From: Agrococcus beijingensis
GTDB lineage: Bacteria > Actinomycetota > Actinomycetes > Actinomycetales > Microbacteriaceae
Assembly: GCF_030758955.1 (NCBI RefSeq)
Contig: NZ_CP132360.1
Location: 2,123,099-2,159,676, forward strand
Length of the DNA stretch: 36,578 nt
Direction of reading: 5' to 3'
In this document: one piece after another, positions 5,732 to 33,863 of the stretch
How the letters are laid out: every line of letters starts with the position of its first letter
Numbering within the stretch: the first letter of the stretch is position 1
Program-made: the position numbers and the translations under genes
The notes under the pieces: model-generated
Told to the model about the DNA's origin: nothing
Database searches by the model: none
What the model saw: the letters and a program-made list of their open reading frames with translations, nothing else

Positions 5732-5748
5732 CGCCCGATGCAACGAAA

Positions 5749-5774
5749 AGAGGAGGCCCTTTCGGGCCTCCTCT
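5749..5774. terminator. Bidirectional intrinsic terminator between the FAD oxidase and FKBP genes
   Basis: A perfect 11-bp stem with TTTC loop: AGAGGAGGCCC / GGGCCTCCTCT. The AAAA before it (5746-5749) gives a T tract on the minus strand, so it best serves the FKBP gene. Its core (GGAGGCCCTTTCGGGCCTCC) is identical to the first hairpin of the array at 1-400. Confidence 0.85.
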
Positions 5775-5798
5775 GGTGAACCGGCTGGACGCGTGCAG

Positions 5799-6170
5799 CT
5801 ACTTGACGGCGATCAGGTCACACACGAAGATCAGCGTCTCGTTCGGGCCGATCACGCCGCCGGCGCCGCGCTCGCCGTAGGCCAGGTGCGGCGGGATCAC
5901 GAGCTTGCGGCGTCCACCGACGCGCATGCCCTCGATGCCCTGCTCCCAGCCCTTGATGACCATGCCGACGCCGAGCGGGAACTCGAGCGGTGCGCCACGG
6001 CCGTACGAGGCGTCGAACTCCTCGCCGCCGGAATGGGTCACGCCGACGTAGTGGACGCTGACCTGCTTGCCGGCCACCGCCTCCTCTCCGTCACCGATCG
6101 TGATGTCGGTGATCTCGAGCTCGGTGGGTGCGGGCCCCTCGGGGGCGTCGATCTCAGGCTTCTCAGTCAT
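5799..6170 (-). CDS. FKBP-type peptidyl-prolyl cis-trans isomerase
   Basis: This 123-residue cytosolic protein is a single-domain FKBP that isomerises Xaa-Pro bonds. Family residues are seen in VHYVGVTHSGGEEFDASY, the LEFPLGVGMVIKGWEQGIEGM core and the PPHLAYGERGAGG loop, ending in the final strand ETLIFVCDLIAVK. There is no signal peptide or tail, only a short acidic lead (residues 1-20). The frame is open further upstream, but the ATG at 6170 is the natural start. A GGAGG lies very close to it (one base), so the ribosome site is imperfect. It is divergent from the OsmC gene and convergent with the FAD oxidase, with a shared terminator between. Confidence 0.92.
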   Translation of the reverse strand: MTEKPEIDAPEGPAPTELEITDITIGDGEEAVAGKQVSVHYVGVTHSGGEEFDASYGRGAPLEFPLGVGMVIKGWEQGIEGMRVGGRRKLVIPPHLAYGERGAGGVIGPNETLIFVCDLIAVK

Positions 6171-12798: not shown

Positions 12799-12922
12799 TG
12801 ACCGGTCCGCTTCTCGCAACTGGCCAGACCGCGAACGATCCGCTTCTCGCGACTGGCCACACCGCGAACGATCCGCAGCTCGCGACTGGCCACGCCGCGA
12901 ACGATCCGCCGCTCGCGGCCCG
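12799..12922. repeat. 33-bp tandem repeat, about four copies
   Basis: Units start at 12799, 12832, 12865 and 12898. The common part is CGAACGATCCG, then CTCGC, then ACTGGCCA. Copies 2 and 3 differ at only a few bases and the outer ones are more decayed. The array lies between the pstB terminator and the stop codon of the minus-strand NUDIX gene, and the last partial unit runs up to that stop. An 8-bp inverted repeat (GCGGACGA-A-TCGTCCGC) precedes it at about 12776-12792. The period is a multiple of three, but no supported gene covers it. Confidence 0.85.
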
Positions 12923-24317: not shown

Positions 24318-24779
24318 TTACTCGGCCGGCCCGAGCTCCGCGTAGTCGGGGAACTCGGTCGAGAAGACCTGCACGCCCACGCCGGCCGGGTCGGGCTCGA
24401 CGCCGTCGGCCGTGAACGACACGTTGCGCTGCCCGCCGAACTCGACGTCGCTCACCTCGAAGACGAGCTGCTGCTCGGGGAAGCCGAAGGTCGTCACGCC
24501 GTTGGGCACGCGCACCTCCTGCGCCTCGTCGTCGACGCGCACCTCGACGAACGTCGCCTCGCCGGGGTTCGTGAAGGTGACGGCGAGGTTCAGCGCGTCG
24601 CCGTCGGGCTCGCCGATGAGCATCGCGTTGTGGAACTCCACGCCGCCGGTCTCGCCAGAGATGCCGTCGGAGGCGTCGTACTGGATGGTGGTCGCCTGCG
24701 GCGTGAGCATGTTGCATCCGGTCACGGCGAGCGCGACGACGACTGCGGCGGCTGCGGCGGCGAGGGGGCGAGGCTGCAC
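24318..24779 (-). CDS. Putative lipoprotein, exported
   Basis: This 153-residue protein has a lipoprotein signal from the chosen GTG 24779: basic start QPRP, an Ala/Val-rich run, then lipobox AVTGC (Cys22). The mature part looks like an all-beta domain with alternating hydrophobics (NLAVTFTNPGEATFVEVRV, TFGFPEQQLVFEV), resembling the DUF4352- or telomeric-repeat-like beta-sandwich lipoproteins, but I cannot name the family. AAAGGGA lies upstream of the GTG. It is convergent with regX3. Confidence 0.75.
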   Translation of the reverse strand: MQPRPLAAAAAAVVVALAVTGCNMLTPQATTIQYDASDGISGETGGVEFHNAMLIGEPDGDALNLAVTFTNPGEATFVEVRVDDEAQEVRVPNGVTTFGFPEQQLVFEVSDVEFGGQRNVSFTADGVEPDPAGVGVQVFSTEFPDYAELGPAE

Positions 24780-24900
24780 GGGATCCCTTTCGACGGTGGC
24801 CGCGGGCGCGAGACGGGTGTGCGCGCGGTCGCGTTCGACTCTACTACCGCTGTCAGGCCGGCGCCCGCGACCGCGGCGGGGGCTCGACGTGAGGCCGCAG

Positions 24901-24962
24901 ACCGACGCCCGGGACGGGCGTCGGCGCTGGGGTCGCGTCGGCGACCCGAAAGGGTCGCCGCC
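24901..24962 (-). repeat. Diverged single copy of the double-hairpin element
   Basis: Read on the minus strand this has a 9-bp stem CGGCGACCC-TTTC-GGGTCGCCG, a spacer, the shared word CCAGCGCCGA, then a perfect 10-bp inverted repeat CCGACGCCCG-TCC-CGGGCGTCGG. The order, the CCC-TTTC-GGG core, the CCAGCGCCGA word and the CCCG-TCC-CGGG core are identical to the 77-bp units at 1-400. The outer stem bases differ in pairs that keep pairing. It lies between the lipoprotein gene and carD. Confidence 0.8.
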
Positions 24963-25029
24963 TTTGCGCTCCACCGCGCGAGGGGGTGATCCTGGCACGG
25001 CGACCGATGCGGCCGCGAGCGACACGCTG

Positions 25030-25068: not shown

Positions 25069-25557
25069 ATGAACTTTGAGGTCGGAGAGACGGTCGTCTA
25101 CCCCCACCACGGTGCCGCGACGATCACCGAGGTGAAGATCCGCAAGATCAAGGGCGTCGAGACCACCTACCTCAAGCTCAACGTCGCGCAGGGCGGGCTC
25201 ACGATCGAGGTCCCCGCGCAGAACGTCGACATGGTGGGCGTGCGCGACGTCATCGGCGAAGAGGGCCTCGGCCGCGTCTTCGAGGTGCTGAAGGCCGACT
25301 TCACCGAGGAGCCCACCAACTGGGCCCGCCGCTACAAGGCCAACGTCGAGAAGCTCGCCTCCGGCGACGTCATCAAGGTGAGCGAGGTCGTGCGCGACCT
25401 GAGCCGCCGCGACCAGGACCGCGGCCTCTCGGCCGGCGAGAAGCGCATGCTCGCGAAGGCCCGCCAGATCCTGGTCTCCGAGCTGGCGCTCGCCGAGCAC
25501 ACCGATGAGGATGCCGCCGCGGCGCGCCTCGACGAGGCGCTCGCCCCCGCGAGCTGA
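25069..25557 (+). CDS. carD: CarD family transcriptional regulator
   Basis: This 162-residue protein binds the RNA polymerase beta subunit and promoter DNA and stabilises open complexes. The N-terminal Tudor-like domain begins [18 protein letters not shown] and holds the RNA polymerase-contact strand region. The C-terminal helical part ([28 protein letters not shown]) contains the conserved Trp (in PTNWARR) that wedges into the upstream fork. Size and sequence match mycobacterial CarD. It starts the conserved carD-ispDF-cysS-rlmB order and has its own strong promoter and terminator. Confidence 0.95.
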
Positions 25558-31716: not shown

Positions 31717-31890
31717 TGTCGTCTTCCTTCCACCGGCAGGCACGTGCCGGACGATCCGTCGTGGAATGAGCGCGGGCGGCTCTGCCCGCGGGGACATCCT
31801 CGCACGAGTGACGGCCGGTACCCTAGAGATCGGTGCGCTTCTCGCGCGCGCCACCTCGCCGGACCTCCGGCCGACCCCAGGACAGGACGC
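31717..31890. other. Divergent promoter region between the ABC ATPase and DsbA-like genes
   Basis: This 174-base gap holds TACCCT at 31819-31824, a plausible -10 for the plus-strand operon with a leader of about 60 bases. I find no clear -35 or operator. Confidence 0.4.
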
Positions 31891-33788: not shown

Positions 33789-33791
33789 GGG

Positions 33792-33863
33792 AGCCCCCTG
33801 TCAGGATTGAACTGACGACCTACGCTTTACAAGAGCGTTGCTCTACCACTGAGCTAAGGAGGC
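33792..33863 (-). tRNA. tRNA-Thr (anticodon TGT)
   Basis: A 72-base cloverleaf on the minus strand: acceptor GCCTCCT pairs with AGGGGGC (one G-U), D-arm TAGCTCAGTGGTAGAGCA, anticodon loop CTTGTAA (TGT, threonine ACA), T-loop GTTCAATCC. CCA is not encoded. TAGAAT at 33903-33898 is the likely -10. Confidence 0.95.

Follow-up and report, generated by a model that had tools for sequence, protein, structure and literature searches.

A dispersed two-hairpin repeat of the Microbacteriaceae is a probable small, REP/MITE-like mobile DNA element

Introduction

A 36,578-nucleotide stretch of the Agrococcus beijingensis genome (here, the window) begins with a tandem array of short units and, some 24 kb away, contains a single diverged copy of the same unit, lying between carD and a divergent ORF, i.e. 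upstream of carD. A preliminary description of this DNA, made from the letters alone, proposed a dispersed family of structured elements, with a MITE/REP-like repeat or a small RNA as the main options. The locus raises the question of what this element is, how widely it occurs, whether its pairing matters in DNA or in RNA, and how it comes to differ in position between related genomes.

Organisation of the element

Sequence comparison agrees with the preliminary description that the single copy has the same parts in the same order as the array units (Table 1). The word CCAGCGCCGA is common to both, and outer stem bases have changed in pairs, hairpin 1 being GGAGGCCC-TTTC-GGGCCTCC in the array and GGCGACCC-TTTC-GGGTCGCC in the single copy; the second stem, which has a tandem G-A mismatch in the array, is here a perfect 10-bp repeat. 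That the likeness exceeds chance is borne out by a BLAST search of the host genome with this copy, which recovers others at E-values down to 6.7e-20. The segment originally singled out (24901–24962) does belong to the element, although the 5′ arm of an outer stem had been overlooked; this arm (GCGCGGTGGAGC) pairs with GCGACCCCAGCGC and encloses hairpin 1, so that the element is longer than that segment. Each copy of the family has this plan: an outer stem with fixed unpaired bases, a hairpin with a TTTC loop, and a second hairpin. An isolated covarying pair, as the outer stem was first read, was superseded by the RNAalifold structure. The covariance-model match to the single copy (24900–24981, including two flank bases per side) scores 91.9 bits, with an E-value of 1.4e-15 in the window, this copy being among those from which the model was built.

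Table 1. Features of the element, the array and the flanking genes (window coordinates).
Feature	Position	Strand	Remarks
Tandem array, five diverged units of the same family	1–387	plus	units 1–79, 80–156, 158–233, 234–310, 312–387
Complete 78-nt element (GCGCGG...CGTCGG)	24902–24979	minus	edges conserved in 151 tabulated copies
Left tetranucleotide GCGC	24976–24979	minus	putative target, retained host sequence; pairs with 24924–24927
Outer stem P0, 5′ strand GCGCGGTGGAGC	24968–24979	minus	unpaired T and GA
Hairpin P1, 9 bp in this copy	24939–24960	minus	TTTC loop 24948–24951
Outer stem P0, 3′ strand GCGACCCCAGCGC	24924–24936	minus	last four bases, 24924–24927, putative guide
Hairpin P2, 10 bp	24902–24924	minus	TCC loop 24912–24914; right end of element
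ORF on other side of element	24318–24779	minus	context only
carD, downstream of insertion	25069–25557	plus	Pfam CarD_C 7.7e-36; context only

Upstream of the window, the array continues across 27 masked bases for one unit or more. Between its alternate units (1–399) a compensated stem pair differs, giving a 154-bp higher-order repeat. As the preliminary description had noted, the window holds no third full copy: the next match, at 5733–5819 (25.9 bits, E 0.0036), is a lone CCCTTTCGGG hairpin between convergent genes, and three further matches are weaker (E 0.13–0.29). Within the first of these, at 5755–5768, the GGCCCTTTCGGGCC hairpin has the same core as P1 and is probably an ordinary terminator-like hairpin. 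Elsewhere the window contains an msiK RNA (Rfam RF01747, 53.4 bits, 31717–31777, minus strand), a tRNA-Thr(tgt) (33790–33863, minus strand) and a 33-bp tandem repeat of 3.4 copies (12806–12917). No Pfam match was found for the ORF at 24318–24779.

Distribution

In the host genome, BLAST gave 25 matches at E ≤ 3.1e-5, counting the query itself and the array units, and a covariance model built from 16 host copies gave 33 at E ≤ 1 and 32 at E ≤ 0.01, nine of the host matches lying in two tandem arrays. The model also matched 20 of the 24 Agrococcus genomes in a 40-genome sample, and none of the other 16 (one Microbacteriaceae, 15 from other families). A covariance-model search of the Microbacteriaceae, which the preliminary description had proposed, found the element in 67 of 299 genomes and 31 of 85 sampled genera, and a sample of the order gave three matching genomes among 297, all three Microbacteriaceae, the share of the 297 outside the family not being stated; both searches used stricter filters, by which weak matches are lost. 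An exact-pattern scan of named genomes recovered copies in Pseudolysinimonas, Herbiconiux, Salinibacterium, Amnibacterium, Subtercola, Microcella, Homoserinibacter and a Cryobacterium metagenome-assembled genome (MAG). With copies across host, Agrococcus and Microbacteriaceae genomes, the idea of a dispersed structured family has held.

One apparent copy from another phylum, in a record labelled as an Acidobacteria MAG, was not counted, as the sequence around it is shared with a copy in a Microbacteriaceae genome (L211 and L330 of G103, respectively). No copy was found in viral contigs with one exact pattern, nor in plasmids and phages with one element copy as query. Gene predictions from our own script overlap 29 of 209 copies, and none of the remainder. 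Within the titles and beginnings of abstracts of the open-licence literature searched, no description of the family was found, and Rfam gave no family match for the element in the window or in searches of four loci.

Covariation and probable pairing at the DNA level

Covariation is strong in copies that played no part in the model. Searches of relatives gave 80 matches, 76 of them distinct and none in the model, in which 98.4% of cells pair, 23 of 28 pairs have changed on both sides, and the covariation score is 0.350, against 0.087 in shuffled and at most 0.066 in slid alignments, which served as controls. A further set (A5), comprising 78 matches (66 distinct) mostly from other genera and including three from the host, behaves likewise, with 98.9% pairing, 19 of 28 pairs changed on both sides, and a score of 0.290, compared with 0.085 for shuffled and no more than 0.052 for slid controls. 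Fitting both sets to the covariance model favours the model's own structure. In a MAFFT alignment of the 16 host copies, 18 of 28 pairs have changed on both sides.

A functional RNA on either strand is expected to tolerate, or even favour, its wobble pairs. Among 5672 paired cells of 206 distinct copies, 5539 are Watson-Crick, 32 are G.T, 31 are A.C and 70 are other combinations. With G.T about as rare as A.C, it is apparently in DNA that pairing matters or is corrected, and this lack of a wobble surplus argues for pairing in DNA rather than in RNA. Of the two options raised at the outset, the mobile DNA element is accordingly the one favoured, insertions differing between relatives, and the small RNA has fared poorly, G.T being no commoner than A.C.

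Insertions that differ between relatives

Mobility of the element is read indirectly, from its presence and absence between relatives. Upstream of carD, two of 23 genomes have strong matches, in opposite orientations and at different positions, and one further genome has a 19.8-bit match (L090, E 0.11) that is read as chance. At another site (L056) three relatives share the gene ending AAG CGC TAG, one of them having no element there, and in genome G016 the element lies exactly between GCGC and TAG (the unfilled form AAGCGC^TAG occurring in one relative). At the same site, AAGCGCTAG is found in two relatives in which a reverse-strand copy or remnant follows a few bases downstream, and two more relatives have GCACTGA and CAAGCAGTAG instead. 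No clear target-site duplication was detected in 198 copies tested at k = 2–7 in six framings, where counts were near expectation, the largest departure being 3 observed against 0.7 at k = 4.

One genome, G315, contains near-identical copies that sit inside a different repeat, and some amplification may have occurred by hitch-hiking. The enclosing sequence (L331–L339) is a REP-like repeat, GGTTGAGTAG...ATCGAAACC, present in many copies, several with a nested element. A second dispersed repeat, with tandem units of ~40 bp (GAGTGGCGCTTCC(T/C)GCGGGT), occurs at G000:C1:1881831-1881980, the right flank of host copy L036, and in other Agrococcus genomes. Single long hairpins with arms resembling the left half of the element were also seen at L093 (near 1353(-) and 2084(+)), L297 and L291, as if copied by snap-back synthesis. 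A seemingly frequent class of remnants with the 5′ end only was set aside, the views in question having been aligned on the left flank; the bare motif occurs 295 times against 377 in reversed sequence, and no 5′ bias is claimed.

The left tetranucleotide and its complement

The left tetranucleotide, usually GCGC, complements the four bases adjoining hairpin 2. The two are exact complements in 182 of 197 copies and mismatched in 15; in 15 of the 182, both sides have changed (GAGC in seven, GCAC in three, GGGC in two, and GAAC, GTGC and GCGT in one each). Nine of ten GA-type copies, one array copy being left out, begin inside a predicted TGA stop codon; as gene ends often read TGAGC (166 of 924), such sites are weak evidence.

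Left junctions were compared at 19 sites in 120 relatives, from which a script rule removed 20 with same-strand elements or remnants. In 17 of the remaining 100 element-free relatives, which share ancestry and are not independent, the junction carries the tetranucleotide of the copy itself, at eight of the 19 sites: L033 (1/9), L036 (2/11), L082 (1/7), L118 (6/10), L127 (1/5), L111 (1/5), L108 (2/5) and L056 (3/5). Background frequencies are 2.3% for GCGC, 1.2% for GAGC, 0.8% for GTGC and 0.35% for GAAC. Two of the 17 may be element remnants, L401 (site L118) and L405 (site L036), the latter looking like a copy with an internal deletion. The own tetranucleotide is absent from the remaining 83, including every element-free relative at 11 sites (L075, L116, L078, L138, L061, L200, L132, L206, L216, L032 and L169). 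Some of the copies nested in G315 occupy positions at which the empty repeats have GTAGCC and GCGC is missing on the left side. Paired changes have also taken place in situ between orthologous copies, so that agreement between tetranucleotide and guide could also arise after insertion.

Discussion

The repeat is real and family-wide, and is best read as a small mobile DNA element, REP/MITE-like and with an unusual two-hairpin plan; it is dispersed and structured, is present in some relatives and absent from others, and lacks a clear target duplication. Its mechanism we infer from these features. The account to which we lean, with some reservation, is that of a small non-autonomous mobile DNA, folded as a single strand, inserted 3′ of a guide-paired target and mobilised in trans. 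The single-stranded form would fold into the outer stem and two hairpins and would enter immediately 3′ of a short target (GCGC in most cases) with no target bases duplicated; by base-pairing with an internal guide adjoining hairpin 2, this target would then supply the left strand of the outer stem, much as the cleavage site of an IS200/IS605 element pairs with its guide, and a trans-acting enzyme would probably recognise the fixed unpaired bases (T, GA/GA and CA). On this account the guide function, the single-stranded intermediate and the mobilisation in trans are all suggested by comparison. A broader proposal, that the repeats form a family-wide two-hairpin class with a reprogrammable, guide-read tetranucleotide target and are served by an undescribed, non-Y1 enzyme in the Microbacteriaceae, is offered tentatively and has the odds somewhat against it.

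Quasipalindrome template switching copies one arm of an imperfect palindrome onto the other, and could keep the arms of a mobile, or formerly mobile, repeat complementary without any guide, the covariation and the guide match being by-products. Paired changes in place at the orthologues L063/L134 (flanks 97–98%) and L082/L131 speak for this, as do the apparent deletion that turned GA into GC at L082/L131, the guide base then following, the self-complementary single-hairpin forms (L093, L297) and the equal rarity of G.T and A.C. Arm copying alone should, however, erase the unpaired bases of the outer stem, and these persist, TGGAGC in 174 and CGCGA in 188 of 206 copies; moreover, the deviant GTGC of copy L118 is already present in six of ten element-free relatives (one a possible remnant). 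Such a guide-free origin appears unlikely, if far from negligible. A transcribed structured RNA or 3′-end element, such as a terminator or mRNA stabiliser selected at each place, is improbable: 28 of 209 copies do overlap a predicted stop codon at their left edge, convergent spaces are preferred over divergent ones (49 against 22), and the TTTC loop reads GAAA on the opposite strand, which we take to be a GNRA tetraloop, yet neither strand shows a surplus of G.U over A.C (32 and 31, respectively, of the 5672 cells), the flank table has no T run after hairpin 2, one copy precedes carD, the element is patchily distributed among close relatives, and no Rfam family was found (one of the searches covering four loci).

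The guide-paired mobile DNA preferred here has hairpins, no clear target duplication and a guide-like tetranucleotide adjoining a hairpin, all of which would also suit a REP or an IS200/IS605 derivative moved by a classical Y1 transposase (RAYT/TnpA). That origin is nevertheless very improbable, PF01797 being absent at E ≤ 0.001 from all 33 genomes searched, 30 of them element-bearing, where a control was positive in five of 14. Y2_Tnp likewise matched none of the 33, in a search whose control also matched no genome. A reverse transcriptase as driver, or a retroelement copied by one, was rejected, RVT_1 occurring in four of 33 genomes. An autonomous parent, with genes flanked by inverted copies, was considered as well and not adopted; genes do lie between close element copies at L331, L332, L343, L344 and L363.

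Among the closest known systems, the element resembles REPs and REPtrons (TnpA-REP/RAYT), being a short, dispersed, extragenic palindrome with DNA hairpins and many copies, 32 in the host by covariance model. REPs are palindromes of 20–40 bp. According to one account, an unpaired tag near the hairpin acts in site choice, a likeness to the element, and the IS605 cleavage site pairs with a guide (PMC8266576). The element differs in its length of ~78 nt, in its two hairpins and outer stem, in a consensus without GTAG and with the conserved words TGGAGC, CGCGA and CCAG, and, from REPtrons, in the lack of a RAYT (Y1_Tnp) gene in the 33 genomes. CGTC REPs, as described in PMC3733652, are likewise dispersed palindromes without a dedicated transposase, and are there placed in five phyla other than that of this host; they have a CGTC tag, a CCA tail and a stem of 8–9 bp opening with two AT pairs, in contrast to the GC-rich stems of the element. 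Only the C-G subtype of the element reads CGTC on the reverse strand, the relevant pair being C-G in 141 and G-C in 55 of 206 copies. With IS200/IS605 derivatives it shares the lack of a clear duplication, and would share a target 5′ of the insertion and a target-complementary guide 5′ of a hairpin; it differs in that no Y1 transposase was found and in that an internal hairpin would separate its guide and target, joined by ordinary Watson-Crick pairing. MITEs of DDE transposons have terminal inverted repeats and a target-site duplication; the element is similarly small, non-autonomous and mostly intergenic, but its consensus ends, GCGCGSTGGAGC and CGG, are not mutual inverted repeats, and it lacks a clear duplication.

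REP-like repeats have usually been traced to RAYT or IS transposases. This family occurs in 31 of 85 sampled genera, with no Y1 transposase in the 33 genomes checked, yet its insertions differ between close relatives, and finding the mobiliser could yield a new enzyme. With the set of 206 copies, structure conservation can be tested cleanly against quasipalindrome correction, and if the guide reading holds, the element would be a further natural case in which a DNA guide pairs with a DNA target in target choice.
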